Of a stretch of 64,000 nt of DNA, positions 34,749-60,491 are shown in pieces. The notes beneath the pieces were generated by a model. The model was not told the origin of the DNA. It worked only from the letters and a program-made list of their open reading frames with translations, and did not search any database. Source of the DNA: Paracoccus aurantiacus (GTDB lineage: Bacteria > Pseudomonadota > Alphaproteobacteria > Rhodobacterales > Rhodobacteraceae). A program made the position numbers and the translations under genes. The stretch spans positions 124,001 to 188,000 of the forward strand of contig NZ_VOPL01000003.1 in the NCBI RefSeq assembly GCF_007993065.1. Reading direction: 5' to 3'. The number at the start of each line of letters is the position of its first letter. Position 1 is the stretch's first letter.

Positions 34749-34787
34749 CGAGCTGTTCCAAAGCTGAATAGCCCGTGTCCTTGCGAC

Positions 34788-34875: not shown

Positions 34876-34885
34876 GATGACCACC

Positions 34886-37039: not shown

Positions 37040-37094
37040 CGCGCACCAGCGGGGCGGTCTCGGTCGCCCCGCTTACTCCCCACCCCATATAGGC

Positions 37095-37119
37095 TCGGCC
37101 CCGGCCGGGCCTTTTTTTT
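37095..37119 (+). terminator. rho-independent terminator after parB
   Basis: A GGCCC/GGGCC-type GC-rich hairpin (about 37097-37111) is followed by eight T (37112-37119). It ends parB transcription, and its T-run is immediately followed by the CAGGAG ribosome site of the next gene. Confidence 0.75.
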
Positions 37120-37133
37120 CAGGAGACAGGATC

Positions 37134-37463
37134 ATGCCATCCGACAACCATCCCAACCCCGGCCAGCCCATTCCTCAGACTGTTCATGTCGCCCTTTATG
37201 AACATCGCTATGGAACCGATGTGCGCGCTTTTCTCGACAGCGAAGAGGCGATGCACTGGCGCACAGAGATCGCCAAAGAATGGTGGACTGACGCCTTCGA
37301 TGACGATCTGCCGCCCGACGACCAGATCGGCGACGTGTATTTCGAGCGCATGTTGGAGCGCGACGAGTTCTTTTGGACGAAGGCGTGTGAAATCAAACGC
37401 GATCCTCCTGATTCCACCGATCCGGACAGCCCCGTTCCAAGCGCCGATGGTGGTGGCGCATGA
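37134..37463 (+). CDS. hypothetical ICE protein
   Basis: 109-aa acidic protein, not recognised. It has VHVALYEHRYGTDVRAFLDSEEA near the N-terminus and WWTDAFDDDLPPDDQIGDVYFERM in the middle. CAGGAG lies upstream right behind a terminator. It overlaps the next gene by 4 bp (ATGA), so the two are coupled. Confidence 0.65.
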   Translation: MPSDNHPNPGQPIPQTVHVALYEHRYGTDVRAFLDSEEAMHWRTEIAKEWWTDAFDDDLPPDDQIGDVYFERMLERDEFFWTKACEIKRDPPDSTDPDSPVPSADGGGA

Positions 37464-37759: not shown

Positions 37760-37814
37760 GCAGCCCTTACGCCTGTGCCTGGCGCAGACCGGGCCATCGG
37801 GGTATCGCCGCGCA

Positions 37815-38005
37815 GCCAGCGACGGATCGAGGTCCAGCGTCACCATTGCGCCGTCAGCTTCTCGCAGCGGGACAGCGGATTCCATCTCCAGCCTGAAACA
37901 CATCCTGAAGATCAGCCCGGCAACGAGGCTGGCGCGGCGGGGCATCTATGACGGGATTCCCGGCATCCTGTCAGAGGCGAAGCACCACCCCCGCTTCCAT
38001 TCGCG
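37815..38005 (-). pseudogene. decayed inverted copy of the 54-aa gene at 38187 and its leader
   Basis: The minus strand resembles the plus-strand gene at 38187 and its leader. GCCAGCCTCG, GTGTTTCAGGC(T)GGAGATGGAA and CTCGATCCGT occur in the same order, as do leader pieces GCGGGGG, GACAGGA and GCCGGGAA. Translated pieces also match (SAVP/SAMP, then LDLDP/LELDP). The stop codon is not kept and indels break the frame, so the copy is not functional as a gene. The two copies lie head-to-head. Confidence 0.6.
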
Positions 38006-38135
38006 AACCTTGGTCCGACCGTCTCTTTGTCAATCAACCCACGAGGGGTCGGCTTACGCGAGCGTGCCGCCCTCGCGGATTCGGACGAGCCGAACGCGCG
38101 AGGGTGATTGCAGATCCGGTCGGACACTTCGGGCG

Positions 38136-38175
38136 CCTGTCGCGCGGGGGATGGTCCCCCGCCTCCCAAGACAGG
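38136..38175 (+). ncRNA. structured leader family 2, copy 1
   Basis: Outer stem CCTGTC (38136-38141) with GACAGG (38170-38175) and inner 8-bp stem GCGGGGGA (38144-38151) with TCCCCCGC (38155-38162), with a TGG loop. The ATG of the 54-aa gene is 11 nt further. The same two-stem plan with a TGG loop occurs before ssb at 48726. The remaining sequence from 37760 to here has the decayed inverted copy and no other gene. Confidence 0.6.
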
Positions 38176-38186
38176 AGCCGGAACCC

Positions 38187-38351
38187 ATGTCCTATGCAGA
38201 TGCCACCGCCTTCGCCGCCAGCCTCGCCACCACGCTGATGGTTTCCATCGTCGTGTTTCAGGCCGGAGATGGAACCCACTCCGCCATGCCGGCCGACGAG
38301 TTCGACGGCGACGAGGAGATGGTGAAGCTGGAACTCGATCCGTGGAGCTGA
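38187..38351 (+). CDS. 54-aa ICE protein with membrane-like N-terminus
   Basis: Small protein, not recognised. The first half is hydrophobic (ATAFAASLATTLMVSIVVF), the second acidic (MPADEFDGDEEMVKLELDP). It has a structured leader and a GGAG-like site. That a diverged inverted copy of the same protein exists next to it supports its reality as a gene. Confidence 0.6.
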   Translation: MSYADATAFAASLATTLMVSIVVFQAGDGTHSAMPADEFDGDEEMVKLELDPWS

Positions 38352-38526
38352 GGCGCGAAAGCGCCTCACTCCCAAGGCCCGGTGCCCAAGCGCAGTCGGG
38401 CCTTCTCCCGACAATCGCCGCCGATTGCCGCTTGCGTGCCGGACGGCATTGCGATCTCGACCCGCATCGGAAAGAACCGTCGGCGATCACGCCGATTTCG
38501 CTCCATCAAGATGAAAGCCATTCGCC

Positions 38527-38895
38527 ATGCTCAGCCATATTGTCGTTTCCATTCTGCTCTGCACGGCGTCATGCGAACCGGCCGAAATCCGCGTCTGGGA
38601 CGGCGATTCCATTCGCTTGGGCACGACGCGGCAATCTGAGGCCGTCCGGATCTTCAACATCGACGCCCCCGAGATCGAGGGGCAATGCGCGTATGAAACC
38701 GACCTCGCGCTGCAATCGAAGATCAGGCTGGCCGAGCTTCTGAAAGGCCAGCGGATCGAAATCCTGCACCAGGGAACCGACCGCTATGGCCGGACCCTGG
38801 CGGCGATCCGCGTCGAGGGACGAGACGTCGGAGACATTCTCGTCAGCGAGGGACTGGCCCGAACCTGGGCGGGACGCCGCGAACCGTGGTGCTGA
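38527..38895 (+). CDS. secreted thermonuclease-like (SNase) protein
   Basis: 122-aa small nuclease-like protein. A short signal or lipoprotein-like N-terminus (MLSHIVVSILLCTASC) precedes an SNase core: IRVWDGDSIRLG, IFNIDAPEIEGQC with the metal-ligand Asp, L-L-KGQRI, and TDRYGRTLAAIRVEG with catalytic Arg. SNase-like proteins are common on conjugative elements. Its role here is unknown. Confidence 0.82.
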   Translation: MLSHIVVSILLCTASCEPAEIRVWDGDSIRLGTTRQSEAVRIFNIDAPEIEGQCAYETDLALQSKIRLAELLKGQRIEILHQGTDRYGRTLAAIRVEGRDVGDILVSEGLARTWAGRREPWC

Positions 38896-38938
38896 TCCAC
38901 CCCGACAACAGGAGAGTGAGAGGGTGGGTCGGTTGGCC

Positions 38939-38984
38939 GTGACGGGTTGCAGGTGGAAGAGAGGCTTCCGCCGCCCGTCGTGGA
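38939..38984 (+). ncRNA. structured leader family 1, copy D
   Basis: GACGGG (38941-38946) pairs with CCCGTC (38974-38979) around GGTGGAA (38952-38958) with TTCCGCC (38966-38972) and the same GAGAGGC loop as copy B. GTGGAG follows and the ATG lies at 38994. Confidence 0.65.
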
Positions 38985-38993
38985 GCAAACCCC

Positions 38994-39551
38994 ATGACCC
39001 TTTCCCACCACCCCGGTTTTACCCTGGTCGGCGACGTCATCACGCGCGAGGTGTTGCCCCGGCTGCGCTACGCCCAAAAGCTGCCGTTGCGCCTCTCCTG
39101 CATGGGCACGGCCGGTTACGAGGGCCTCGACGAGGCCGATGAATTCGACCGCACGGTCGTCATCGGTCAATCCGCATCCGCCGAAGAAGCCATGATCCTT
39201 GCCAGCCAGCGCGTCGCGCGCGGCGACATTCGTGTCAGCGCGGACGACACGCTGCGCTTTCACCCGCGTATCGTCGTCATTCAGGACGGCGATCTCGGCC
39301 TGGTTCTCGGTGGCGAGATCCGGGCAGGAATCGTCCTCTGGCAGCAGCCCGTCGTCTCCGACGTGGAGGCCCGCCGCATCATCACCGAAGCCAGCCGCTT
39401 GCGCGGGCTGGCCTTCGCCGCCTCCGGTCGGGTCGATCACAGCGCAGCCCGCGATCATCGTTATCGCGCCAGCCTGCTCGAGGCCCGACTGGTCGATCCC
39501 TACTGGCGCGAGACCGCGGCGGAGCTTCTCCATCTGCCCCAGGCCGCCTGA
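38994..39551 (+). CDS. hypothetical ICE protein under leader copy D
   Basis: 185-aa protein, not recognised; no membrane helix. It has VITREVLPRLRYAQKLPLRLS at the N-terminus, VIGQSASAEEAMILASQRVARGD in the middle and a C-terminal RDHRYRASLLEARLVDPYW. Possession of a family-1 leader puts it in the same expression group as ardC and parB. Followed by a terminator. Confidence 0.65.
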   Translation: MTLSHHPGFTLVGDVITREVLPRLRYAQKLPLRLSCMGTAGYEGLDEADEFDRTVVIGQSASAEEAMILASQRVARGDIRVSADDTLRFHPRIVVIQDGDLGLVLGGEIRAGIVLWQQPVVSDVEARRIITEASRLRGLAFAASGRVDHSAARDHRYRASLLEARLVDPYWRETAAELLHLPQAA

Positions 39552-39570
39552 CACCTTCTTCCACATCTTC

Positions 39571-39599
39571 GCCCGGCCGCGCGCCGGGCTTTCTCGTTT
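39571..39599 (+). terminator. rho-independent terminator
   Basis: GCCCGGC (39571-39577) pairs with GCCGGGC (39583-39589), then TTTCTCGTTT. As at 37095, the T-rich tail runs directly into CAGGAG of the next gene. Confidence 0.65.
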
Positions 39600-39611
39600 C
39601 AGGAGTCCGAC

Positions 39612-40028
39612 ATGGCTAACTATTTCACCCATTTCTCCTGCCTGCTCGACGTAGGCACCCCGGAAAACGCCGCCCGCGCGCTCGACCTCTACAACGCACT
39701 TTCAGAGGAAAACGCTGCCGAAGACCCTCCCTCGGAAGGATTCATTCTGTCGATCCAGCCTGAGCATGGCGGCACCCAGCTCTGGATGCGCGACGATGAG
39801 ACCGGCGATCCCGAGCATGTGATCCAGTTCGTAAAACGCTGCGCGGCCGCGTTCGGCCTGTCGGGCCTCTGGGGCTTCCAGTATGCGACCGCCTGCTCGC
39901 AAGCCAGGGTCAACGCCTTCGGTGGTGGCGCGCATGCCCTCGATCTCGCCACCGGCGAGACCGTGGACTGGATCTATAGCGGCAGCTGGCTGGAGATCGT
40001 CCTGGACGGAGGTGATCCCTATGCCTGA
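39612..40028 (+). CDS. hypothetical ICE protein
   Basis: 138-aa protein, not recognised. Begins ANYFTHFSCLLDVGTPENAARAL and ends WIYSGSWLEIVLDGGDPYA; has a FGLSGLWGFQYATACS segment. It looks like a compact alpha/beta protein. CAGGAG precedes the start, and the end overlaps the next gene by 8 bp. Confidence 0.68.
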   Translation: MANYFTHFSCLLDVGTPENAARALDLYNALSEENAAEDPPSEGFILSIQPEHGGTQLWMRDDETGDPEHVIQFVKRCAAAFGLSGLWGFQYATACSQARVNAFGGGAHALDLATGETVDWIYSGSWLEIVLDGGDPYA

Positions 40029-40665
40029 GATCATCGAAACCACGGTCTATCGGCTCGACGAGCTTTCCGACACGGCGAAGGACAAGGCCCGCGCCTGGTA
40101 TCGCGAAGGCGGGTTCGACTACGACTGGTATGATGCGGTCTATGAGGATTTCCAGCGGATCGCGGAAATCCTCGGCATCCGCTTCAAGACCCGCACCGTG
40201 CGCCTGTATGGCGGCGGCTCGCGGCGGGAGCCGCGCATCTTCTTCTCAGGCTTCTGGTCACAAGGCGATGGCGCTTGTTGGGAAGGGTTCTACTCCTATG
40301 GGAAGAACGCCTCGGCCGAGATTCGATCCCATGCACCGCAGGATACGGCCCTGCACGGTATCGCCGATGCCCTTCAGGCAATCCAGCGACGCAATTTCTA
40401 CCAGCTTCGCGCCGAGGCCAGCCATCGTGGTCGCTACTACCATGAGTATTGCATGGCGATTTCCGTCGAACGCGACAGCCAGACATATCAGGACATGACC
40501 GCCGATGCCGAGGAGATCGTGATTGAGGCGCTGCGCGATCTGGCCCGTTGGCTCTACCGCCAGCTTGAGCGCGAATACGACTACCTCTCCTCGGGTGAGG
40601 CGGTGGATGAGACCATCACCGCCAACGAATATACCTTCACCAAAGCCGGACGCCGTTTTGGCTGA
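40021..40665 (+). CDS. hypothetical ICE protein
   Basis: 214-aa protein, not recognised with confidence. It begins ETTVYRLDELSDTAKDKARAWYR, contains RLYGGGSRREPRIFFSGFWSQGDG and a long C-terminal helix ending in YRQLEREYDYL. Aromatic residues are frequent (Tyr, Trp). Relatives occur on plasmids and phages. It overlaps the upstream gene by 8 bp, so co-translation is likely. Confidence 0.68.
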   Translation: MPEIIETTVYRLDELSDTAKDKARAWYREGGFDYDWYDAVYEDFQRIAEILGIRFKTRTVRLYGGGSRREPRIFFSGFWSQGDGACWEGFYSYGKNASAEIRSHAPQDTALHGIADALQAIQRRNFYQLRAEASHRGRYYHEYCMAISVERDSQTYQDMTADAEEIVIEALRDLARWLYRQLEREYDYLSSGEAVDETITANEYTFTKAGRRFG

Positions 40666-40670
40666 CCCCG

Positions 40671-40705
40671 ACAAGCGCTCCGCCTCTCGGCCGGGCGCTT
40701 GTTTC
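40671..40705 (+). terminator. probable terminator hairpin
   Basis: ACAAGCGC (40671-40678) pairs perfectly with GCGCTTGT (40695-40702), followed by TTC. It lies 5 bp after the stop of the previous gene. The T-run is short, so termination may be partial. Confidence 0.5.
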
Positions 40706-40823
40706 ATGCCTGCTTACGCCACGGCTTGAGAGGGAGAGAGCGACCGGAAGGGATTTGAGCCGGTGCGGTCGAGAGAGAGCGCCGTGCGGCTCGGTCCTAT
40801 TCCGCTCTCCCAAGGAATCTCCG

Positions 40824-43800
40824 ATGAACATGATCTCTGCTTCCGCGGCGGCCTCCGCCGCCGCGCCGCTTCCACTCGACCATGACGCCGAGACGGCTGC
40901 TTCCACCTTCACCGCTGCCGGTTTCCTGCTGCCGCATCTCGAACGCGGTCAGCGTGTCGATGCCGCAACCCTGCGCGGCGCCATGGAAGCGGCCTTCGGC
41001 GCTTCCGATGCCACCGGCGCCTGGAACTGGAAGACCGCCTATGATGCCTGCGAGGCGGCGACCGTCCTCTTCCTGCGCAAATACGGCGCTGCGCTTTTCC
41101 GCAGAGCCGGGTCATCGGCGGCTATCCTGCCGCAGCTCGGCAAGATCGCCGGGCTCCTGCCGACGCATACACGCCGGTCGGAGGAAGCCCAGACCTTCCA
41201 GCAGTTCTCCACCCCGATCCCGCTTGGCTTTGCGGCGGTGACGGCGGCGGCGATCACTCCTGCCGACCGGGTGCTGGAGCCCTCGGCCGGCACCGGGCTC
41301 CTCGCCATTCTGGCCGAGATCGCCGGCGGCACGCTGCTCCTCAACGAACTCGCCGAGATGCGCGCCGGCCTGCTTTCCTCTCTCTTTCCGGCCCTCTCCG
41401 TGACCCGCTTCGACGCCGCCCAGATCGACGATCACCTCGATCCCGGCCTGGTCCCGACCGTCGTGCTGATGAACCCGCCGTTCTCGGTCATGGTGAATGT
41501 CGAGGGCCGCATGGCCGATGCCGCCTTCCGCCATGTCGCCTCGGCGCTGGCGCGCCTTGCGCCCGGCGGGCGGCTTGTGACCATCACCGGGGCGAGCTTC
41601 GCCGCCGACAATCCGGCATGGACCGCCTCCTGGACCCGGCTGCAGGAGCGCGGCCGCGTCACCTTTTCCGCCGCAGTCGATGGGTCGGTCTATGCCAAGC
41701 ATGGCACCACGATCCCAACCCGGCTGACCGTCATCGACAAGCTGCCCGCCGACGACCCTGCGGTGTTTCCGACAGCAATCGGAGTCGCGCCGGACGTGGC
41801 GACGCTGATGGGCTGGCTGGCGGATCAGTTGCCCGCGCGGCTGCCGGTCGATCCCGGCGTTGCCGTGCCGATCGCGCGGCCTGCCGTCCCCCGCACCGTG
41901 CGCGGCTATGTCAACCGAACGGCGAGGGCTGCGCCCGCCGCGCCGCTGGCCGAGCCGGAGGGGGTGCCGCTCGCCTATGAGACCGTCGATTGGGCACCGG
42001 CCGAAGACGGCCGCCTCTCCGATGCGATCTATGAGGAATACGGTCTCCAGACCATCCGCATCGCCGGCGCGCAGGCGCATCCGACCCAGCTCGTGCAATC
42101 GGCGTCGATGGCGAGCATCGCGCCGCCGAAGCCGAGCTACCGGCCGATGCTGCCAGCCGACATTCTCGGCAAGCTGTCCGAGGCGCAACTGGAAACCGTG
42201 ATCTATGCCGGCGAGGCCCATACGGGCTTCCTCGCCGGGGCCTGGACGGTCGATGACACGCTCGACAGCCTGTCCGCCGCGCCGGAGGAGGCCGAGGGTG
42301 CCATCCGTTTCCGCCAAGGGTTCATGGTCGGCGACGGCACTGGTGTCGGCAAGGGCCGGGAATCCGCTGCCATCATCCTCGACAACTGGATGCAAGGGCG
42401 GCGTAAGGCGGTCTGGATATCGAAGTCGGACAAGCTGCTGGAGGACGCACAAAGGGACTGGAGCGCCCTCGGCATGGAGCGGCTGCTGGTCACGCCGCTG
42501 TCGCGCTTCCTACAAGGCAAGCCGATCACTCTGGGCGAAGGCGTCCTATTTTTAACCTATGCCACGCTGCGCTCCGACGACCGCGGCGAAAGGGTTTCGC
42601 GCGTCAAACAGATCGTCGAATGGTTGGGCTCCGACTTCGATGGGGTCATCATCTTCGACGAGGCGCATGCCATGGCCAACGCCGCCGGCGGCAAGGGAGA
42701 ACGCGGTGATGTCGCCGCCAGCCAGCAGGGTCGCGCCGGGCTGCGCCTCCAGCATGCCCTGCCGCAGGCCCGCGTCGTCTATGTCTCGGCCACCGGCGCC
42801 ACCACCGTCCACAACCTCGCCTATGCGCAGCGCCTGGGCCTCTGGGGCGGCGAGGATTTCCCGTTCTCGACCAGGGCGGAATTCGTCGAGGCGATCGAGG
42901 CCGGTGGCGTCGCGGCAATGGAGGTGCTGGCCCGCGACCTGCGCGCCCTCGGCCTCTACACCGCCCGTTCGCTGTCATTCAAAGGCGTGGAATACGAGCT
43001 GCTCGACCATGAGCTGACCCCGGAGCAGATCCGCATCTACGACAGCTACGCCGATGCCTTCGCCATCATCCACAACAACCTGGATGCCGCGATGCAGGCC
43101 GCCAACATCACCGGCGGCGACGGCGGCTCCGGCACGCTGAACCGGCAGGCCAAATCCGCCGCCCGCTCGGCCTTCGAGAGCGCCAAGCAGCGCTTTTTCG
43201 GGCACCTGCTCACGTCGATGAAAACCCCGACGCTGATCCGCTCGATCACCAGCGATCTGGAGGCGGGCCATTCCTCCGTCATCCAGATCGTTTCGACCGG
43301 CGAGGCGCTGATGGAACGGAGGCTCGCCGAGATCCCCACCGAGGAATGGGGCGACCTGAAAATGGACCTGTCGCCGCGCGAATATGTCCTCGACTACCTC
43401 GCCCATTCCTTCCCGGTCCAGCTCTACGAGCCGTTCACGGATTCGGAGGGCAACCTGTCGTCTCGCCCGGTCTATCGCGACGGCCAGCCAGTCGAAAGCC
43501 GGGAGGCCGTGGCGCGGCGCGACGAGATGATCGCAAGCCTCGCCAGCCTGCCGCCGGTCCCCGGCGCGCTCGACCAGATCATCCAGCATTTCGGCACTGA
43601 CACCGTGGCCGAGGTCACTGGCCGCTCGCGCCGGATCGTTCGCAAGCGCAGCGTGACCATCGACCGGCTGGTCGTGGAGAATCGCGCCGGTTCGGCCAAT
43701 CTCGCCGAGACCCAGGCGTTCATGGATGATGGCAAGCGTGTGCTGGTGTTCAGCGACGCCGGCGGCACCGGGCGCAGCTACCACGCCGAACTCTCGGCGA

Positions 43801-45173
43801 AGAACACCCGGCTGCGCGTCCACTATCTCCTCGAAGCGGGCTGGAAGGCCGATGCCGCCATCCAAGGGCTTGGCCGCACGCACCGCACCAATCAGGCGCA
43901 ACCGCCGCTGTTCCGGCCGATCTCGACCAATGTGAAAGCCGAGAAGCGATTTCTCTCGACCATCGCCCGCCGCCTCGACACCTTGGGTGCGATCACGCGC
44001 GGCCAGCGCCAGACCGGCGGTCAGGGCCTGTTCCGCCCGGAAGACAATCTGGAGAGCCACTACGCCCGCGACGCGCTGCGCCAGCTCTATCTCCTGCTGG
44101 TGCGGGGCAAGGTCGAGGGATGCAGCTTGGAGCGGTTCGAGGCCGCAACGGGGCTGAAGCTGATGGACTCGAACGGCATCAAGGATGATTTGCCGGCGAT
44201 CACCACGTTTCTCAACCGTTTGCTCGCCCTGACCATTGAGCTTCAGGGCGTGCTGTTCACCGCCTTCGAGCAGCTTCTGACCGCGCGGATTGAGGGCGCC
44301 ATCGCCTCGGGCACCTATGATGCCGGACTGGAGACGCTGCGCGCCGAAAGCTTCGTGGTGGCGGACCGGCAGGTGATCTACACCCATCCGCGCACCGGGG
44401 CCGAGACCAGCCTGCTGACTATCACCGAACGCAAGCGCAACCGGCCGGTGACGCTCGACGCCGCCTTGGCCGAACTCGATGATCCGCGTGCGAAGCTGCT
44501 GATCAACGAGCGCTCGGGTCGCGCGGCGGTGCAGATCCCCAGCACGAGCGTCATGCTGGATGATGGCGAGATCGAGCGCCGCGTCCGCCTGATCCGGCCG
44601 ATGGAGGCCCATAACGTCCCGGTCAGAATGATGGGCGAAACCCATTGGGTCGAGGCCGACCGGGACGTCTTCGCATCGGCTTGGGAGGCCGAGGTTGCAG
44701 AAGTGCCGGAGTTTGCCGACAGCACCCTGCATATGGTCACGGGCTTGTTGCTGCCGATCTGGAAGCGGTTGCCCAATGACTCCACCCGCGTCTATCGGCT
44801 CCAGTCTGACGCCGGCGAGCGCATCATCGGCCGGAAGGTCTCTCCAGCCTGGGCCGCGAACGCGACCAAGACCGGAACCGCATCGGTCACGCCGGATGAT
44901 GCCTTTGCGGCGCTGATGGAAGGTCGGACGATCCTCGATCTCGCCGAGGGCCTTCAGCTTCGGCGGGTCCGCGTCATGGGCGCGAACCGGATCGAACTCT
45001 CCGGCTTTACCGACATGATGCGTCAGCGCCTCTCGGCCTATGGCCTCTTCCACGAAATCATCTCATGGAAGCTGCGCATGTTCGTTCCGGTCGATGGGAC
45101 TGGCCCTGCCGTTCTCGGCAAGGTTCTCGACCGCTGGCCGGTCGAGCGCATCGGCGAGCGGGAGGCAGCATGA
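40824..45173 (+). CDS. DarB-like methyltransferase-helicase (strawberry-notch family)
   Basis: 1449-aa protein. An N-terminal N6-adenine-methyltransferase-like domain has RVLEPSAGTGLLA (near 148-160) and NPPFSV (near 215). Then a superfamily-2 helicase of the strawberry-notch type: VGDGTGVGKGRESA as Walker A (near 500), IIFDEAHAMAN (DEAH, near 610) and a C-terminal helicase half with AIQGLGRTHRTNQ (near 1012-1024). Phage P1 DarB has a methylase-helicase design and protects DNA from restriction; a similar role is inferred here. It overlaps the next gene by 4 bp. Upstream 40706-40823 is a GA-rich leader with no family-1 structure. Confidence 0.88.
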   Translation: MNMISASAAASAAAPLPLDHDAETAASTFTAAGFLLPHLERGQRVDAATLRGAMEAAFGASDATGAWNWKTAYDACEAATVLFLRKYGAALFRRAGSSAAILPQLGKIAGLLPTHTRRSEEAQTFQQFSTPIPLGFAAVTAAAITPADRVLEPSAGTGLLAILAEIAGGTLLLNELAEMRAGLLSSLFPALSVTRFDAAQIDDHLDPGLVPTVVLMNPPFSVMVNVEGRMADAAFRHVASALARLAPGGRLVTITGASFAADNPAWTASWTRLQERGRVTFSAAVDGSVYAKHGTTIPTRLTVIDKLPADDPAVFPTAIGVAPDVATLMGWLADQLPARLPVDPGVAVPIARPAVPRTVRGYVNRTARAAPAAPLAEPEGVPLAYETVDWAPAEDGRLSDAIYEEYGLQTIRIAGAQAHPTQLVQSASMASIAPPKPSYRPMLPADILGKLSEAQLETVIYAGEAHTGFLAGAWTVDDTLDSLSAAPEEAEGAIRFRQGFMVGDGTGVGKGRESAAIILDNWMQGRRKAVWISKSDKLLEDAQRDWSALGMERLLVTPLSRFLQGKPITLGEGVLFLTYATLRSDDRGERVSRVKQIVEWLGSDFDGVIIFDEAHAMANAAGGKGERGDVAASQQGRAGLRLQHALPQARVVYVSATGATTVHNLAYAQRLGLWGGEDFPFSTRAEFVEAIEAGGVAAMEVLARDLRALGLYTARSLSFKGVEYELLDHELTPEQIRIYDSYADAFAIIHNNLDAAMQAANITGGDGGSGTLNRQAKSAARSAFESAKQRFFGHLLTSMKTPTLIRSITSDLEAGHSSVIQIVSTGEALMERRLAEIPTEEWGDLKMDLSPREYVLDYLAHSFPVQLYEPFTDSEGNLSSRPVYRDGQPVESREAVARRDEMIASLASLPPVPGALDQIIQHFGTDTVAEVTGRSRRIVRKRSVTIDRLVVENRAGSANLAETQAFMDDGKRVLVFSDAGGTGRSYHAELSAKNTRLRVHYLLEAGWKADAAIQGLGRTHRTNQAQPPLFRPISTNVKAEKRFLSTIARRLDTLGAITRGQRQTGGQGLFRPEDNLESHYARDALRQLYLLLVRGKVEGCSLERFEAATGLKLMDSNGIKDDLPAITTFLNRLLALTIELQGVLFTAFEQLLTARIEGAIASGTYDAGLETLRAESFVVADRQVIYTHPRTGAETSLLTITERKRNRPVTLDAALAELDDPRAKLLINERSGRAAVQIPSTSVMLDDGEIERRVRLIRPMEAHNVPVRMMGETHWVEADRDVFASAWEAEVAEVPEFADSTLHMVTGLLLPIWKRLPNDSTRVYRLQSDAGERIIGRKVSPAWAANATKTGTASVTPDDAFAALMEGRTILDLAEGLQLRRVRVMGANRIELSGFTDMMRQRLSAYGLFHEIISWKLRMFVPVDGTGPAVLGKVLDRWPVERIGEREAA

Positions 45174-46216
45174 TGCCCCGTCACGATGTCTCGGAACTGG
45201 CGATCCGTCTCGGTCGGGAGGCCGAGGCGGTCTGCCGCCATTATCTGTCGTCCGGCCAGCGCGCCGGACGATACTGGCTGGTCGGCGATGTGCAAAACAC
45301 GCCTGGGCGATCCATGTTTGTCCGCCTCACCGGGCCTGAATCCGGCAAGGGCGCGGCGGGGAAGTGGACCGACATGGCCACTGGGGAGCATGGCGATCTG
45401 CTCGACATCATCCGGCAATCGCTTGGCCTCGTCGACTTCAAGGACGTGGCCGAGGAAGCGCGCCGTTTCCTCGCTCTCCCGCATCCCGAACCGGAGAAGA
45501 CGAAGACGCCGACCGGCAGCACGTCCAGCGTGGCGTCCGGTTCGCCTGAAGCGTCTCGCCGCCTCTTCGCCATGGCGCAGCCGATCGGCGGCACGCTTGC
45601 GGAGATCTACCTGCGCGGGCGGGCGATCACCCGCCTCTCGGGCACCGCCGCGCTGCGCTACCATCCCCGGTGCTATTACAGGCCCGATGAGCATTCGCCC
45701 ACCGAGATCAGGCCGGCACTCGTCGCCGCCGTCACCGATCTCTCCGGCCACCAGACCGGCGCGCATCGCACCTGGCTCGCCCCGGACGGTTCCGGCAAGG
45801 CACCTGTCGAAACACCGCGGCGGGCGATGGGCGACCTTCTCGGCCACGCAGTCCGCTTCGACACTGCCGCTGAGGTTCTCGTAGCCGGCGAGGGCATCGA
45901 GACCGTGCTGTCGCCCCGTCAGGTTCTGCCCCACATGCCGATGCTGGCGGCGCTTTCAGCCGCTCACCTCGCTGCCATCCTGTTCCCGCCGTCCCTGCGC
46001 CGGCTCTATGTCCTGCGCGATCGCGACCCGGCCGGGGACGGCGCAAGAGACAGCCTCGCCTCCAGAGCAGCGAGCTTCGGGATCGAGGCGGTCACGCTCA
46101 CGCCGGTCGAGGGCGACTTCAACGATGATCTGCGACGCCGTGGCGCCGATGCCCTCAGGGCGGCCCTGAAGGATCAGCTTCATCCCGAGGACATCCGCCG
46201 TTTCATGGAGCGGTGA
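45170..46216 (+). CDS. Toprim-domain (primase-like) protein
   Basis: 348-aa protein of the DUF7146/Toprim type found on plasmids and ICEs. The N-terminal half has GKWTDMATGEHGDLLDIIRQ and the central part LRGRAI and LRYHPRCYY, as in primase-helicase N-terminal folds; the C-terminal Toprim domain has VLVAGEGIETVLS (Glu) and LYVLRDRDPAGDGARDSL (DxD). No zinc finger is present. It probably aids primer synthesis on the incoming strand. ATGA overlap with the helicase gene. Confidence 0.83.
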   Translation: MMPRHDVSELAIRLGREAEAVCRHYLSSGQRAGRYWLVGDVQNTPGRSMFVRLTGPESGKGAAGKWTDMATGEHGDLLDIIRQSLGLVDFKDVAEEARRFLALPHPEPEKTKTPTGSTSSVASGSPEASRRLFAMAQPIGGTLAEIYLRGRAITRLSGTAALRYHPRCYYRPDEHSPTEIRPALVAAVTDLSGHQTGAHRTWLAPDGSGKAPVETPRRAMGDLLGHAVRFDTAAEVLVAGEGIETVLSPRQVLPHMPMLAALSAAHLAAILFPPSLRRLYVLRDRDPAGDGARDSLASRAASFGIEAVTLTPVEGDFNDDLRRRGADALRAALKDQLHPEDIRRFMER

Positions 46217-46553
46217 GGATGTAATCGTTCTCGGAGGCGCGGCCCAACTCGTCGCCTGCCGGTTTCGTTCGCTGGCCATCGGCAGGCGCATCCTTCGTCG
46301 GAGAGGCCCGCACCCACGGCCTTCTGAGAGGGCGATCGGCGCACAAACGGGCCGGGCAGGCAATGGCCGCTTTCGGACTATTTTCCGCCGGCGGGGACGA
46401 GCCCCGCCTTTGCATCGCGAAAGTCAAAATAGTCCGAACCCGGCCATCGAGGCCCTCGCGGAGTGGGCGAGGGCTGCCAACCCGTCCCGCCCGTGCGCGT
46501 CGACGCCTGCGAAGGCCGCGATGGGCGCGGTCTCCAGACAAAGGACGCTCCCG
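46217..46553 (+). other. non-coding region with a long nested hairpin
   Basis: No supported gene. A perfect 13-bp inverted repeat TTCGGACTATTTT (46372-46384)/AAAATAGTCCGAA (46426-46438) encloses a second GC-rich hairpin (about GGCGGGG-ACGA-GCCCCGCC, 46389-46408). It may be a cis-acting RNA, a folded single-strand promoter or an origin-like element for the downstream gene. The rest of the region shows nothing recognisable. Confidence 0.55.
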
Positions 46554-47489
46554 ATGACGAACGAAACCTATTCCGCAGGCGACGAGCCGGTCCACACCTC
46601 CTCCCAGACCGATCACGCCCTCACCGAACTCCAGCTCTACGGCTGGCGTCCTTTCCAGGACGAACCCGATCCCAGGCCGCTGCCCGAAGGCAATACCGTC
46701 GCCAGTGCCGTCACCGACATCTTCGACGCCCTCGTCGCGACGCTCGGCGACACCCGCTTAGAGCCCGATCTCGAAGAGCTGCTCTGGGGGACGGTCAATC
46801 TCTTTCACCGCGCCGCCAGCCGGGTGGAACGCGATCTCGACGACAACGAGCAGGCGCAGCGCCGGATGCAGCGGGAACAGGACGGCAGCGAGGTGAAGTC
46901 GGTCGAACTCGAACGCCTCACGGCAGAGGGACAGACCCTCATCGAACGGCGCAACAGCATGGAACTCTTCCGCGATCTCGCCGCCGAGGCTTTCGAACAC
47001 CACACCGGCAGCGCCTGGCGGCCGCGCAGCGGCTCGATGGTCAACCATCGCAACCTGACCGCCGCGATGATCGACAGCCGCGACTTCCTTGCCGCGAAAC
47101 GCCGCGCCGAGACCGAGGTGATGCTGCCTGCCGGTCCCAAGGTGGCCGTGACCGGCGGCGCCGGTTTCAACGATCACCGGCTGATCTGGGGGCGGCTCGA
47201 TCAGGTCCATGCCAAGCACCCGGAGATGGTCTTGCTGCACGGCGGCACCCCGAAAGGCGCGGAACTGATCGCCTCCCGCTGGGCAGACCACCGCAAGGTG
47301 CCGCAGGTCGCCTTCCGGCCCGACTGGACGAAGCACGGCAAGGCCGCACCCTTCAAGCGCAACGACGCGATGCTGGATGTGCTGCCGGTCGGCATCCTCG
47401 TCTTCCCCGGCACCGGGATTCAGGAGAATCTCGCCGACAAGGCCCGCAAGCTCGGCATCCCGGTCATGAAGTTCGACGGCGGCGCGTAA
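46554..47489 (+). CDS. SLOG-family (DUF2493) protein
   Basis: 311-aa protein. The N-terminal 190 residues are acidic and helical (DNEQAQRRMQREQDGSEVKSV); the C-terminal part is DUF2493: KVAVTGGAGFNDHRLIWGRLDQV, MVLLHGGTPKGAELIASRWA, VPQVAFRPDW and VGILVFPGTGIQENLADKARKLGIPV. This is the nucleotide-binding SLOG fold (YspA/cpYpsA group), a group linked to nucleotide-derived signals in conflict systems. Actual ligand unknown. The start at 46554 is chosen over 46410, which lies inside the hairpin region. Confidence 0.82.
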   Translation: MTNETYSAGDEPVHTSSQTDHALTELQLYGWRPFQDEPDPRPLPEGNTVASAVTDIFDALVATLGDTRLEPDLEELLWGTVNLFHRAASRVERDLDDNEQAQRRMQREQDGSEVKSVELERLTAEGQTLIERRNSMELFRDLAAEAFEHHTGSAWRPRSGSMVNHRNLTAAMIDSRDFLAAKRRAETEVMLPAGPKVAVTGGAGFNDHRLIWGRLDQVHAKHPEMVLLHGGTPKGAELIASRWADHRKVPQVAFRPDWTKHGKAAPFKRNDAMLDVLPVGILVFPGTGIQENLADKARKLGIPVMKFDGGA

Positions 47490-47649
47490 GCGCCGCCGTT
47501 CGGCGGCTTTCAGCCGCCAAACCTTGACAGGAAGCGAGGTCGAGCCTCTATTGGAGCATCCTTGTAGAACCGGCGAAGCAGAATAGTCGCAGGCGGAGCG
47601 CATCTCCCGGCAGCCTGTCGTGATCCTCAACCGTTCGCTGGAGGTTTCC

Positions 47650-48066
47650 ATGACGTTGATCCTGCTCGCCATCTCTTTGACCATCACGGCCTGCGTGATC
47701 GCCTACAATCTCGCGATCTACGCTTTGCCCGTCATGTCGGCCATTACTGCCGCGCAATACGCGTGGGGCGCGGGAGCCGGCGTCCTGATGTCCGGTTTCG
47801 CTGCGCTCGGTGCGGCCCTGCTGTCCATCGTCTTGGTGATCGCGGTCCTGGGCTTTGCCAAGAACCCTGTTCTTCGCCTCATCGCGCTTGCCCTCTTCGC
47901 GGTGCCCGCCGTCATAGCTGGCTACGCGCTCGTCTATGGCGTCACGAAGAACGCCATAGACTCGACCCTCGCGCTCAACCTTCTGGGCGGCGTGGGCGGC
48001 CTGGTCATCGGCGTCTCGGCCATCATCAATCTGAACGCGCTCGGCGAGTCGGTGTTCTCGCGCTGA
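47650..48066 (+). CDS. small integral membrane protein
   Basis: 138-aa protein, not recognised, made almost wholly of hydrophobic helices (four predicted: about 3-28, 42-66, 70-92 and 108-132) rich in Ala, Val and Leu. GGAGG lies 6 bp before the ATG. It may be an inner-membrane ICE protein such as an exclusion or stability factor; no evidence distinguishes these. Confidence 0.65.
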   Translation: MTLILLAISLTITACVIAYNLAIYALPVMSAITAAQYAWGAGAGVLMSGFAALGAALLSIVLVIAVLGFAKNPVLRLIALALFAVPAVIAGYALVYGVTKNAIDSTLALNLLGGVGGLVIGVSAIINLNALGESVFSR

Positions 48067-48135
48067 GCCGGCGCGCGCGATCCCGCAGTCTCATGGAAAC
48101 CCGACGGCTGGACCACCGGGCTCCGGGCTTCCTGC

Positions 48136-48573
48136 TCAGAATGGGAAATCATGTCATCGCGGTCACGCTGCCGTCTTTCTCGACCTGCTTTGCCCGGCTC
48201 TGGAAGCCGGTCATCGGCGTGAATCCCGCTGACGCCGTGCAGTCGATGGCCAGCCGCATCCTTCCACTTCATTTCGTGAACACAGCCGCAATCACCTTCA
48301 AACCCTTGCCGCAATACTGCCGGACCTGACCTCGTGCCATTGATGCAGGTGATGCGATGCCGGTTCCGCGCTCCAGACCCGATAGCCCTTCTCGTCACGG
48401 GCCACACAGCCTTCCAGCGGGGCGTGAACATGACGGGGAAGTGGGTTAGATCGGGATGCCCGGTGGCATGGATACGGGTTCCAAGGGCCAGCACGCTGCT
48501 GCTACCGGCAGGGATGCCAGTTCTGCTGCGCGTCCCCGATTGGCTCTCGAAGGCACCAATCCCTCCGACTGAC
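48136..48573 (-). pseudogene. decayed inverted copy of ssb and its leader
   Basis: The minus strand matches the intact ssb at 48772 from its stop (TCA at 48136) back through GTGGAAGGATGCGG, CACCGCATCACCTGC-like and CGTGACGAGAAGGGCTATCG blocks to the start region near 48527, where the ATG is lost, and on through the leader (GTCGGAGGGAT-GGT, near 48552-48573). Indels shift the frame, so no SSB can be made. It lies head-to-head with intact ssb, with about 150 bp between the two leaders. Confidence 0.8.
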
Positions 48574-48725
48574 TGATCCCCTAAGTCCGTTCGGTTTCCA
48601 CCAGCAACCCCGGCGGCTCCGGACCGTGTTGCCGCGCGAGCGCGGCTGCCCGCCCCACTCCGGGCCTTAGGGGCGAGCTGCCGCAAGGGCGGCAGTTGCG
48701 GGAGTCTCCCGACGGCCTTGGCCGG

Positions 48726-48766
48726 GTCTCGTCGGAGGGATGGTCCCTCCGAGGAGCAACGGAGAC
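48726..48766 (+). ncRNA. structured leader family 2, copy 2 (ssb)
   Basis: Outer stem GTCTC (48726-48730) with GAGAC (48762-48766) and inner 9-bp stem TCGGAGGGA (48732-48740) with TCCCTCCGA (48744-48752), with a TGG loop identical to that at 38136. The ssb ATG is 5 nt further, so the outer stem would cover the GGAG ribosome site. Confidence 0.65.
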
Positions 48767-48771
48767 TTACA

Positions 48772-49173
48772 ATGCAGAACATCGTCATCCTCGCCGGCAA
48801 CATCGGTCAGGCCCCCGAAACCCGCACCACCCAGGGCGGCACCTCGATCACCCACTTCAGCCTCGCCACGTCGCGCCCCAAATACTCGGAAGGCCGCGTG
48901 GTCCGTGACGAGAAGGGCTATCGGGTTCAGGACACGGAATGGCACCGCATCACCTGCTTCAACGGCCTCGGCAAGACGGTCCAGCAGTATTGCGACACGG
49001 GCATGAAGGTTCTGGTTCGCGGCCGCATCCACTACACGAAGTGGAAGGATGCGGAGGGCAACGACCGCTACGGCTGCGAGATCATCGCCGAGACCGTCGA
49101 TTTCCTGAGCCGGGCGAAGCAGACCGAGAACGACGACGGCAAGTTCATCGACGACGATGACATCCCGTTCTGA
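48772..49173 (+). CDS. ssb: single-stranded DNA-binding protein
   Basis: 133-aa OB-fold SSB: MQNIVILAGNIGQAPETR, ITHFSLATSRP, WHRITCFNGLGKTVQQYCDTGMKVLVRGRI and KDAEGNDRYGCEIIAETVDFLSR, with the conserved acidic C-terminal tip DDDDIPF that recruits partner proteins. The short linker is usual for plasmid-borne SSBs. It should coat the transferred strand in the recipient. Preceded by a structured leader and a decayed inverted copy; followed by a strong terminator. Confidence 0.93.
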   Translation: MQNIVILAGNIGQAPETRTTQGGTSITHFSLATSRPKYSEGRVVRDEKGYRVQDTEWHRITCFNGLGKTVQQYCDTGMKVLVRGRIHYTKWKDAEGNDRYGCEIIAETVDFLSRAKQTENDDGKFIDDDDIPF

Positions 49174-49186
49174 GCGGGAAGCCAGA

Positions 49187-49224
49187 GGCCCGGCGGCGCA
49201 AGCCGCCGGGCCTTCCATGTTTAC
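49187..49224 (+). terminator. rho-independent terminator after ssb
   Basis: A perfect 11-bp stem GGCCCGGCGGC (49187-49197)/GCCGCCGGGCC (49202-49212) with a GCAA loop is followed by TTCCATGTTT. Confidence 0.7.
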
Positions 49225-49373
49225 GGTGGGTCGCGCCCGCCGGCTCAGCGCAAGATTCCCCACCGGAACGCCATGCGCCTTCGCGCCCGGCGCTCCGATT
49301 TCCTTGCCGGAGAATCGGATCATTTCCAAAAACAGGAAACCACTTTTTGGTCCGATGCTCCCCGAATGAGTAG

Positions 49374-49726
49374 GGGGCAAGCCGCCCCTCTCAAACTCGC
49401 CCCATGAAGGTGCAGGGCTACGCCCCGCCCCCTCCAACTCCCTACCCATGGAGGGGAGACCCCTCCAAACCTCCCCTTTGGCGTTGCGCTGAATAATGTC
49501 GCGACCCCTGGTCGGGGCCGCGGGCTCCTCTCTCTCTGACTTCGGATCATGCACCAGCCACTCCGGCGTCAAGGACTTCGCGGTCCCCCAATTTTCAGCC
49601 GACGCCCAAGAACATCGTCAGAAAATCGGCTCCACCACTCGCCGCCGCTGGCGGTCGGCTTACGCGATCCCTGACCCCTCGCGGCAACAGTGCAGGCTCC
49701 TCCCGTCAGAACGAAAGGAGAAACAA
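49374..49726 (+). repeat. ~350-bp direct repeat (leader family 3), copy 1
   Basis: This segment recurs at 50375-50728 with most bases identical by eye, in the same orientation, each time ending at the ATG of a different gene. It contains GGGGGCAAGCCGCCCCTCTC at the left, a GCG-CCCC/GGGG-CGC hairpin near 49500, the shared GACTTCGGATCATGCACCAG block, and an ATTTTC...GAAAAT stem near 49590-49625. Together with 49225-49373 it is a 550-bp stretch without a supported gene; minus-strand frames in it are repeat artefacts. Confidence 0.75.
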
Positions 49727-50281
49727 ATGTCTGATCTCGATTTCCTCAATCTCTCAAGAAAGCTTGGCCGCATCAGAACCAGGGTGCGCAAGAACTACTT
49801 CAGGTGCGACACTCGCTTTTCGCAGTCCCTCCATGAAAAGCTGCTTCTTGCCCTCAACGGCCATCTCAAGACTTGCCGCGAGGGCGCAAAGGTCCAGCGG
49901 CGGCTACGGAACGAAAGCGATCCGACGGTGCGCGAGTCCCTTGAACAGACCCTCGGCGACTGCATGGGCGATCTCGAATCCGGCGGCCGGGGGTTCTATC
50001 CTTGGCATCTGCTGGATGCCGTCGATGGTGACCCGGACTTCGGCGGATACCACCACCCCGTTGCGGCCATGTGGTGCAATGGCCCGATCCCGGAATGGAT
50101 GACCGTCGAGGACAAGCATCTGTCCGGCCTTGGTCCCATCCTCCGGCAGATCGCTGCCCAGACAGGTATCCGCTTCACCACCTATCTCTGCGATGCCAGC
50201 ATTGGCCCCGATGGCGCGGGGCAACTCGACCCCGAGATCTACGAGCGCCCGGTCAGCAACTTCCGATACCGATACCGATAG
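49727..50281 (+). CDS. hypothetical ICE protein under leader family 3
   Basis: 184-aa protein, not recognised. The N-terminus is basic (LSRKLGRIRTRVRKNYFRCD), then a helical region (LHEKLLLALNGHLKTCREGAK) and an aromatic C-terminal half (GRGFYPWHLLDAVDGDPDFGG, YHHPVAAMWCNGPIPEWM), ending in FRYRYR. AAAGGAG lies 7 bp before the ATG. It is followed by a terminator. Confidence 0.68.
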   Translation: MSDLDFLNLSRKLGRIRTRVRKNYFRCDTRFSQSLHEKLLLALNGHLKTCREGAKVQRRLRNESDPTVRESLEQTLGDCMGDLESGGRGFYPWHLLDAVDGDPDFGGYHHPVAAMWCNGPIPEWMTVEDKHLSGLGPILRQIAAQTGIRFTTYLCDASIGPDGAGQLDPEIYERPVSNFRYRYR

Positions 50282-50284
50282 CGA

Positions 50285-50318
50285 GGTGGCGGGCGGCGGA
50301 AGCCGCTCGCCACCTTTT
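50285..50318 (+). terminator. rho-independent terminator
   Basis: GGTGGCGGGCGGC (50285-50297) pairs with GCCGCTCGCCACC (50302-50314), one mismatch, GGAA loop, followed by TTTT. Confidence 0.75.
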
Positions 50319-50374
50319 CCCCTGTCGTAATAGCCATACCGACCGGATCGACCGCTCGGCAGGGCTTATGAAAG

Positions 50375-58508: not shown

Positions 58509-58610
58509 GCGGCTCCGTGCGGTTTCGCATCCTGTCGACCGCTGGCGTGTCATGGAGGGCGCGGGGGGTGGCGGCAGGCACCACGACCGGAAGATGGCAG
58601 GATAAAAGCG

Positions 58611-58740
58611 CGCACGGTGCGGCTCGGTCGGTCGGTTGTTTTTGTTCATGTTTTCGGCGCGTTCCGCACCGTGCCGCGCATTCGCGCACCGTGCGCCTCG
58701 CGCCCATCCTCCTGAATTTCCTTACTGTCTTGCACCGTGC
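58611..58740 (+). other. GCACCGTGC repeat cluster, candidate oriT/relaxase operator
   Basis: Four copies of a 9-bp box: GCACGGTGC (58612-58620, inverse orientation) and GCACCGTGC (58666-58674, 58686-58694, 58732-58740). The first and second extend to an 11-bp inverted repeat GCACGGTGCGG/CCGCACCGTGC around a T-rich loop (TTGTTTTTGTTCATGTTTT). The cluster ends 11 bp before the relaxase ATG, a usual place for oriT or an autoregulatory operator. No nic site can be assigned. A short frame at 58505-58762 crosses it and is not supported. Confidence 0.55.
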
Positions 58741-58751
58741 GGGGCTGTGTC

Positions 58752-60491
58752 ATGTCCGATGAACACGAGTTCCGCATAAGGCCGGGGCGCATCCGCTCGA
58801 CCCGCGCTCAGCAGACCCGGCCCTTCATCGCGCAGGCGCTCGCCGCCGCGAAGAAGGCCGGCGGTGGCGTCTCTCGATCCGGCCGCGTGACTTCCGGCAA
58901 TCGCTCCCGCTTCGGGCGCGGCCAGCGCGCCAGCGTCCAGGCCAATCGTCTCATCACCACCCGCACACGCGGCGCCGTCGTCAAGGCGCGCGTGGTGCGC
59001 AACATGGCATGGTCCGCGCCGCTCGGAACGCATCTCGATTATCTCCGCCGTGACGGCGTGACCCGAGATGGCGAGAAGGCACGGCTGTTCGGGCCGGGAA
59101 CGGAGGATGCCGATGGTCGCGCCTTCGCGGAGCGGTGCGGCGATGACCGGCATCATTTCCGGTTCATCGTCTCGCCCGACGACGCGCCGGATATTTCCGA
59201 CCTCCGATCATTCACGCGCGATCTTGTCGGCCAGATGGAAAAGGATCTCGGGACGCGCCTCGACTGGGTGGCGGTCGATCACTGGAACACCGCGCATCCG
59301 CATGTCCATCTGATCGTGCGCGGTGTTCGCGACGATGGGCAGGACCTCGTGATCTCCCGCGACTACATCAAGGAGGGGATGCGGGACCGGGCGCGCGATC
59401 TCATCACCCAGGAGCTGGGGCCGCGCACCGATCTCGACATTCACCGTGCGCTAGAGGCCCAGATCGAGGCGGAACGCTGGACCCAGCTCGACCGGCAGCT
59501 TGTCCGTGATGCGGGAAAATCCGGCATCGTCGATCTTGCCCCGCTCGCCAGCCGACCGCAGGACGAGTTCCATACGCTGAAGGTCGGGCGGCTGCGCACC
59601 CTCGAAATCCTCGGCGTCGCCGGGCAGATCGGCCATTCGCAATGGTTCATCAAGCCCGAGGCCGAGACGGTCTTGCGCGAACTCGGCGAGCGCGGCGACA
59701 TCATCAAGCGCATGCACCGTGCCCTGATCGCGCGCGGCATCGAACGCGGCTCGGCCAGCTATGTCCTCGCCGGCGAAAGCCTCGACGTTCCCGTCATCGG
59801 CCGCCTGGTCGAGCGCGGCCTTGACGACGAGTTGAAGGGCACGGCCTATGCCGTCGTCGATGGCGTCGACGGACGCACCCACCACATCAAGCTCCCTCAT
59901 CTCGATGCCGCCGGTGACAGCCCGCCCGGCTCAATCGTCGAGTTGCGCGCCTATGAAGATGCGCAAGGTGCGCGCCGCGTCGCGCTCGCTGTCCGCTCCG
60001 ATCTTGATCTCGGTGCGCAGGTGGGGGCCTCGGGCGCGACCTGGCTCGACCGCCAGGCCATCGCCCGCGAGCCGGTTCCTCTCTCGGATAGCGGCTTCGG
60101 CGCCGAGGTCCGTCAGGCACTGGACGAGCGGGCGGAGCATCTGATCGGCGAGGATCTCGCGGAGCGGCAAGGCGGGCGCGTCGTCTTCGCTCGCCGGCTA
60201 TTGAACACGCTGCGCAGGCGCGAACTCGACAGTCTCGGCGAGAAGCTCGCGGCCGAGACCGGCATGTCCTTCGAGCGCGCCGCCAGCGGCGAATATGTCG
60301 CCGGCTCCTATCGCCAGCGCTTCGCGCTCGCCTCAGGCCGCTTCGCCATGATCGACGATGGCCTCGGCTTCCAGCTCGTGCCCTGGTCGCCCTCCATTGA
60401 GAAGCAGATCGGCCGTCACGTCTCCGGCATCGCCCGCGACGACGGCGGTGTCGATTGGGACTTCGGGCGCAAGCGCGGCCTCGGCCTCTGA
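58752..60491 (+). CDS. rlxS: RlxS-type relaxase (VirD2-like, DUF3363)
   Basis: 579-aa relaxase that nicks oriT and leads the strand into the recipient. N-terminal Arg-rich region, then HLDYLRRDG (candidate catalytic Tyr near 96), HHFRFIVSPDD and the histidine motif NTAHPHVHLIVRG (near 176-188). The C-terminal half is the DUF3363 domain. GTG-rich sequence upstream holds the repeat cluster; an ATG at 58752 is used. traG follows 25 bp later. Confidence 0.93.
   Translation: MSDEHEFRIRPGRIRSTRAQQTRPFIAQALAAAKKAGGGVSRSGRVTSGNRSRFGRGQRASVQANRLITTRTRGAVVKARVVRNMAWSAPLGTHLDYLRRDGVTRDGEKARLFGPGTEDADGRAFAERCGDDRHHFRFIVSPDDAPDISDLRSFTRDLVGQMEKDLGTRLDWVAVDHWNTAHPHVHLIVRGVRDDGQDLVISRDYIKEGMRDRARDLITQELGPRTDLDIHRALEAQIEAERWTQLDRQLVRDAGKSGIVDLAPLASRPQDEFHTLKVGRLRTLEILGVAGQIGHSQWFIKPEAETVLRELGERGDIIKRMHRALIARGIERGSASYVLAGESLDVPVIGRLVERGLDDELKGTAYAVVDGVDGRTHHIKLPHLDAAGDSPPGSIVELRAYEDAQGARRVALAVRSDLDLGAQVGASGATWLDRQAIAREPVPLSDSGFGAEVRQALDERAEHLIGEDLAERQGGRVVFARRLLNTLRRRELDSLGEKLAAETGMSFERAASGEYVAGSYRQRFALASGRFAMIDDGLGFQLVPWSPSIEKQIGRHVSGIARDDGGVDWDFGRKRGLGL

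Follow-up and report, generated by a model that had tools for sequence, protein, structure and literature searches.

Palindromic leaders and reverse-complementary gene arms at ssb and two further units of a conjugative element from Paracoccus aurantiacus

The elements Frpo1 and Frpo2 of plasmid F are reported to be required in vivo for the early expression of the genes downstream of them (PMC9849209), and the Frpo search made for leading-region anti-defence islands is described as relying on five known sequences together with consensus boxes, in four islands (PMC11541004). Template switching during replication, in turn, is reported to create, maintain and repair inverted repeats (PMC8794818). 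Here we analyze a 64,000-nt stretch of Paracoccus aurantiacus DNA (contig NZ_VOPL01000003.1, positions 124,001 to 188,000; hereafter the window), which carries a conjugative element, judged from genes for an RPA replication initiator (53497), a relaxase (58737) and a TraG-type coupling protein (60358). Three units of this element, built around ssb, a gene for a 54-aa protein and a DUF2493 gene next to a toprim primase gene, combine a palindromic leader with complementarity between the gene body and the DNA on the other side of that leader. The reading we favour, with a probability of roughly 45%, is that the conserved leaders serve expression or priming on the transferred strand (T-strand), and that the gene-body complementarity stems mainly from foldback template switching.

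Comparison of the 63 adjacent 1-kb tiles covering bases 1-63000 of the window revealed antisense matches above 36 bits only at ssb (119 bits), toprim/DUF2493 (84 and 44 bits) and the 54-aa gene (47 bits), the next-best tile pair scoring 35.6 bits; the three units that stand out all centre on palindromic leaders. The first inverted scans of the whole window had missed them, presumably because blastn merges near-contiguous arms, for which the later screen allows. The predicted folding energies of the entire units (-350 kcal/mol for ssb, -356 for DUF2493/toprim and -180 for the 54-aa gene, compared to shuffle means of -213, -244 and -119 kcal/mol; z -28, -16 and -11, with 20, 20 and 100 shuffles, respectively) were computed for the minus strand alone, and such values cannot tell the strands apart. 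According to these models, the single transferred strand could fold into very long hairpins. The first-pass annotation of the window had pointed out two independent cases of a gene with a decayed inverted copy upstream, ssb and the 54-aa gene. Both are real, while the DUF2493/toprim unit, which makes three, had been overlooked; as the latter consists of two apparently functional genes, the term "decayed inverted copy" does not cover all units. Since loose blastn scoring (1/-1 with cheap gaps) inflates E-value significance in GC-rich DNA, the significance of the matches rests on a strict recheck (2/-3, 5/2) or on controls; the site tests, the runs test and the tree used alignments of copies first chosen by the loose scoring. 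Related loci more than 97% alike were merged into 86 groups for ssb and 46 for the 54-aa gene. For DUF2493, merging above 96% left 45 of 75 loci, of which 17 entered the synonymous shuffles, ten the segment test and 26 the runs and own-variant tests.

In the ssb unit, 436 of 611 aligned positions (71%, with 58 gaps) are identical between bases 48695-49282 and the reverse complement of 48033-48608, and the match of ssb to its inverted partner reaches 157 bits with strict scoring, compared to a maximum of 26.5 bits among 468 control windows. The inverted copy noticed in the first pass is therefore real, with a frame broken by many gaps, and it extends over 48033-48608. Shuffling of synonymous codons of ssb gave maxima below the real score in all eight loci analyzed. 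The homology extends beyond the ssb stop codon by about 110 nt and reaches the terminal part of the upstream gene, which indicates that gene boundaries do not limit it. On the minus strand, an open frame of 289 aa (47934-48803) crosses both the inverted copy and the leader. Two pairs of direct repeats are also found in this neighborhood, one just downstream of ssb (49366-49734 and 50368-50736, 87% over 373 nt) and another nearby (50292-50478 and 51117-51301, 73%).

The DUF2493/toprim unit is composed of two genes that apparently are both functional, as judged from their sequences. The DUF2493 gene (46554-47489) is antisense to 45475-46362, with a strict score of 136 bits over 994 nt, and its partner lies mostly inside the toprim gene (the strand opposite 45475-46216). 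In 300 codon shuffles the 136-bit match was replaced by scores of at most 33.7. Synonymous shuffles that keep both the DUF2493 protein and its codon usage scored far lower than the real sequence: in the window, where the real value is 126, the 300 shuffles averaged 45 and none exceeded 70, and in the related locus L018 a real value of 186 compares with a shuffle mean of 48 (maximum 77). Among the 17 loci tested in this manner, none of the 300 shuffles reached the real score in 13, seven did so in L031, and the signal was missing in L036, L083 and L076. The signal is distributed along the gene: of six segments, each compared with 60 codon shuffles, all exceeded the shuffles in L018, five did so in the window, and between three and five in each of the remaining eight loci. 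The complementarity thus goes beyond what the protein sequence constrains. All 45 aligned loci retain the toprim motifs GEGIET and DRDPAG or close variants of them, and a stop occurs in 12 of the 45 translated alignments. The kept motifs and the result of the synonymous shuffles together argue that neither arm resembles a pseudogene.

The 54-aa unit exhibits weaker complementarity than the ssb copy, with 199 of 306 positions identical (65%, 45 gaps) between 38102-38398 and 37770-38039 in antisense, and a strict score of 44.6 bits. The inverted copy reported earlier for this gene is likewise genuine and frame-broken, and covers 37770-38039. The product of the 54-aa gene has no match in Pfam, PHROGs or NCBIfam at the limits used. 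A minus-strand open reading frame (ORF) of 192 aa (37912-38490) crosses the inverted copy. In L022, L023, L042, L058, L068, L071 and their relatives, the 54-aa gene with its own leader is positioned directly downstream of ssb, about 850-1000 nt past the ssb start.

The leaders are the conserved part of these units. The 217-nt ssb leader retains 85-94% identity across seven plasmid relatives, the copies of which are 61-66% identical to that of the window; in the alignment of 86 dereplicated loci the leader is conserved, and conservation starts at the outer arm of the palindrome. Covariation is strong in the ssb leader, where the consensus fold comprises 33 pairs with two-sided changes in 15, and partial in the others: of the pairs shared by the folds of the two strands, 8 of 22 have two-sided changes for DUF2493 and 2 of 16 for the 54-aa gene. 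Minus-strand folding as single-stranded DNA (ssDNA) gave z -3.7 for 48540-48780 (ssb) and -4.5 for 37990-38195 (54-aa). In the 26 pairs of the ssb leader that are common to both strand folds, G-T wobbles fit the minus strand in 23 cells and the plus strand in 6 (13 vs 5 pairs), a count that replaces an earlier one (33 vs 8 cells) resting on one structure. The wobbles do not discriminate between the strands in the 54-aa leader (1 minus vs 4 plus cells) or in the DUF2493 leader (3 vs 3), for which the first count (111 vs 3, favouring plus) had included pairs commonly in the wobble state. The three leaders have only short matches in common, and no further copy of the ssb leader turned up in a profile search of the window and the relatives' loci. 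A weaker TGG loop (CCGCGATGGGCGCGG, 46522) precedes DUF2493; thus, the TGG-loop leader, described initially as a feature of the ssb and 54-aa genes only, is not quite restricted to them.

The polarity of transfer can be predicted from a motif next to the relaxase gene. The sequence CAGGATA (TATCCTG on the minus strand) precedes the relaxase by 139-142 nt in 23 of 47 loci; among the 28 loci with a relaxase at least 79% identical, 23 have it. In 47 of 47 loci ssb lies upstream of the relaxase and on the same strand, 5.5-10 kb away (this set of 47 was not dereplicated). TATCCTG, which we take to be the RP4-type nic motif, implies that the minus strand would be the T-strand and would run leftwards from 58598-58604. 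With this polarity ssb, DUF2493/toprim and the 54-aa gene would enter the recipient in that order, within about the first 21 kb, and the relaxase last; the ssb, DUF2493 and 54-aa genes would probably enter early, as their template strand. These counts fit the polarity assumed in the first-pass annotation, namely relaxase side last and the minus strand transferred as template. As judged by the putative nic motif, the leaders would therefore share with Frpo/ssi both the location in the leading region and the use of the T-strand as template. The coordinates of all features are collected in Table 1.

Table 1. Features of the three units and of the predicted transfer region (positions in the window)
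Feature	Position	Strand	Support
Inverted partner of 54-aa gene and part of its leader	37770..38039	-	
Palindromic leader of 54-aa gene	37982..38186	+	conserved blocks in 46 loci
54-aa gene	38187..38351	+	homologues found in 46 loci after dereplication
Toprim primase gene (uncertain start; longest ORF begins at 45065)	45170..46216	+	DUF7146 9.2e-39, Toprim_3 3.3e-21
DUF2493 leader with conserved CTATTTT...AAAATAG palindrome	46362..46553	+	45-locus alignment
DUF2493/YAcAr gene, 311 aa	46554..47489	+	PF10686 5.3e-31
Inverted partner (decayed copy) of ssb, including the flank downstream and some of the leader	48033..48608	-	
Palindromic ssb leader; conservation runs from ~48559 (left arm TCCCTCCGAC) up to the start codon	48555..48771	+	
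ssb gene, 133 aa	48772..49173	+	PF00436 2.4e-26
Putative nic motif, TATCCTG on minus strand	58598..58604	-	motif conservation before relaxase
Relaxase (MobA/VirD2-like + DUF3363)	58737..60491	+	PF11843 2.5e-88, PF03432 2.3e-06

The inverted layout is found in related elements as well. A locus with a truncated ssb (L003) was excluded from the ssb test, which left 85 loci; in 47 of these the match of the locus's own ssb to its own upstream stretch exceeds all 468 control windows, while 38 retain ssb and its leader with no detectable arm. For the 54-aa gene, 33 of 46 loci score above the 99th percentile of 363 control windows, and 13 above the highest control (35.6 bits). Leaders and genes persist in the loci that lack a detectable partner; thus, the arms are dispensable. 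The initial proposal that the inverted gene copies themselves might be the promoters is therefore not upheld, given that the leader is the conserved part and that 38 of 85 loci lack a copy or have one beyond detection. Five loci (L013-L017), from two Paracoccus species, Gemmobacter and metagenome-assembled genomes (MAGs) of Maricaulis and Erythrobacter, share nearly identical ssb units; unless the MAG contigs were binned wrongly, this suggests that the unit has recently crossed order boundaries. In L003 (12879-13049, a Paracoccus pantotrophus plasmid), ssb breaks off after 56 codons, and the stretch carries no annotated feature.

The arms carry traces of their own locus. Variants private to a locus's own ssb are matched by its copy at 589 of 1395 sites, compared to 278 expected from the copies of other loci; the 54-aa copies match their own gene at 413 of 1231 sites (254 expected; 381 match the consensus instead), and DUF2493/toprim does so at 425 of 1731 (290 expected; 835 match the consensus), i.e. 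a patchy excess of 1.5 to 2.1 times the expectation in counts where related loci recur and sites are not independent. The longest exact runs are likewise about twice as long as in column shuffles (ssb: 16.2 vs 8.2, 44 loci; 54-aa: 11.6 vs 5.1, 46 loci; DUF2493/toprim: 20.7 vs 8.9, 26 loci), which ignore uneven constraint along the gene. Rates were compared in hand-picked groups, as were paired sites, pairing gains and 4-fold ratios. Within close groups, divergence reaches up to 21% in the ssb copy and spans 0-16% at the 4-fold sites of ssb; between L027 and L029 it is 13% in the copy and 8-30% at the 4-fold sites of other ORFs in the vicinity, some of them possibly out of frame, which suggests that the copy changes at a roughly neutral rate. 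A rate faster than that of neutral sites was considered for the ssb copy and ruled out, as its rate is close to that of the neighbours' 4-fold sites. Paired sites change less than unpaired ones in the ssb copy (0.166 vs 0.285) and in the 54-aa copy (0.269 vs 0.503), and nearly equally in the toprim strand (0.178 vs 0.185); an earlier, cruder count revealed no protection of paired sites. Relative to gene X, the 4-fold divergence of toprim is 0.79 and 0.71 in the two groups with complementarity and 0.96 in the group without it, and that of DUF2493 is 0.62 and 0.64 vs 0.73. The tests of active maintenance thus disagree with each other. For ssb the same ratio is 0.49, 0.54 and 0.52, i.e. about half of gene X in all three groups, with or without an inverted copy, which represents an unexplained synonymous constraint.

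According to the reading we favour, the ~200-nt palindromic leader upstream of the 54-aa, DUF2493 and ssb genes would fold while the transferred strand is single, and would most likely serve expression or priming before second-strand synthesis, in the manner of Frpo on F. Once a nascent strand has copied the gene and the leader, it could fold on itself at the palindrome and take the newly made gene as its template, so that its reverse complement would be written on the far side. Over non-coding DNA this would result in an inverted gene copy that subsequently drifts (ssb, 54-aa), while over a coding neighbour only tolerated patches would survive, leaving partly reverse-complementary genes (toprim/DUF2493). 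Template switching repeated in such a setting, a long single-stranded phase with a strong hairpin, would patchily renew the arms; a one-off duplication fails to explain toprim/DUF2493, and the own-specific patches point to repeated copying between the arms. We infer that the leaders act as promoters or primers, that the template switch takes place, and that it does so during transfer. Several observations weigh against this interpretation. As inverted repeats the leaders are modest (31 bits for ssb, 24 for 54-aa and 32 for DUF2493), the wobble test favours the minus strand for ssb only, and a scan of the linear sequence for sigma-70 -35/-10 consensus boxes, which is blind to a mismatched hairpin promoter or an alphaproteobacterial -10 box, reported 0 sites in the three leaders. 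Own-specificity is an excess over many sites and not a rule: the own pair takes the top score of its row in only 4 of 85 loci for ssb, 8 of 46 for the 54-aa gene and 2 of 45 for DUF2493, and 13 of 44 copies rank their own ssb first among ssb genes. In the tree 43 of 44 ssb copies form one clade, which by itself suggests a single old duplication, unless long branches mislead. Recent gains of pairing are not clearly biased relative to composition for ssb (72 vs 64.6) and toprim (50 vs 49.2), with a slight excess for the 54-aa gene (48 vs 38.6 expected, p 0.03), and the lower toprim divergence where it is complementary can be explained by selection too. Finally, in F and five F-like plasmids (five of the 30 listed plasmids with F-type ssb), ssb matches its upstream region with at most 30 bits and shows no gene-body complementarity, so that palindromes of F-type leaders occur without complementary genes and a hairpin alone is insufficient. 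Outside the clade of copies, the inverted ssb copy of L117 clusters with the ssb of the same locus (support 0.991), which suggests that it arose separately.

The main rival to template switching is selection for pairing, in which the arms would pair with the gene in the entering strand as a surrogate non-template strand, or would protect that strand; in the former case, RNA polymerase starting from the leader hairpin would read duplex DNA and release the message. The slower change of paired sites in the ssb and 54-aa copies agrees with this scenario, as do the lower 4-fold divergence of toprim and DUF2493 where they are complementary, the excess of own-locus variants in all three units and an arm position unchanged across diverse hosts. 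Nonetheless, we regard it as rather unlikely: arms are missing in many loci that keep the leader and the gene, the copy drifts in close pairs at about the 4-fold rate of neighbour genes, the toprim strand and the cruder count show no protection of paired sites, and the reduced 4-fold divergence of ssb is seen regardless of the copy. Still more doubtful appears the bolder proposition that the T-strand carries a built-in surrogate complement for whole leading genes, read as a duplex before the second strand is made, and including two unrelated conserved genes bent into mutual reverse complements.

The leaders could instead be RNA-level regulators (5' untranslated region structures) or dyad operators in double-stranded DNA, unrelated to transfer, given that covariation alone cannot separate DNA from RNA and that the wobbles favour neither strand in two of the leaders. 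Such a role is improbable, considering that conservation begins at the outer arm and leaves no conserved room for an upstream promoter transcribing both arms, that the ssb wobbles fit folding of the minus strand, and that the leaders have no Rfam match at E up to 0.5. (Four weak Rfam matches, all below gathering scores, were obtained at 37048-37170 and 49159-49227.) The partners of ssb and the 54-aa gene might also be old, inert inverted duplicates, i.e. pseudogenes in slow deletion; broken frames, near-neutral evolution, the clustering of 43 of 44 ssb copies and recent pairing gains not clearly above composition would all be expected of them, but this leaves unexplained both toprim/DUF2493, where the two arms are conserved genes, and the patchy runs and own-locus variants above expectation, so that we rank it as the least likely of the explanations.

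Other repeats of the window include 16198-17095 and 21199-22108, which are ~61% alike over 929 nt with cheap-gap scoring and are perhaps paralogous genes, and a family of short direct repeats (32208-32333, 34264-34364, 34783-34894 and 38913-39018; ~90-115 nt, 69-79% identity), several members of which lie just before ORF starts and could represent a shared regulatory leader.

Should the favoured reading be true, leading-region single-strand hairpins would be widespread in alphaproteobacterial plasmids and integrative and conjugative elements, missed by Frpo-based searches, and the transferred strand may leave a lasting mark on coding sequence, with two unrelated conserved genes having become reverse complements over ~900 nt at the level of synonymous codons. 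The release of a message from a single-stranded template and the role of transfer as a driver of template-switch evolution thereby become testable questions. No description of gene-body complementarity beside single-strand promoters was found in the titles and abstract openings of the literature surveyed.

By analogy, the leaders may work like Frpo. The Frpo/ssi single-strand promoters of F and ColIb-P9 likewise place an extended palindromic leader ahead of ssb within the leading region, where the T-strand is the template, and the palindromes of ssb leaders score 46-88 bits in five F-like plasmids and 30 in F. However, the best match of our leaders to leading-region stretches of F and the five F-like plasmids is 13 nt long (E 0.36), and they contain no consensus -35/-10 boxes; we therefore do not claim membership in the Frpo family. 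Complementarity ends in the leader on the six F-type plasmids, and seven F leading genes have no inverted copy even with loose scoring, whereas in the element described here it runs through the genes. Samuel et al. 2024 (PMC11541004) report a similar orientation, suited to transcription from the T-strand, for ssb and further early genes of leading-region anti-defence islands, and the leaders found here would probably escape the Frpo search made there. The arms may resemble quasipalindromes, in which template-switch mutation is reported to homogenise the arms of inverted repeats in patches (PMC8794818); the repeats in this line of work (also PMC8604942 and PMC7202029) are short, whereas the arms described here span ~250 to 900 nt and include two adjacent functional-looking genes.

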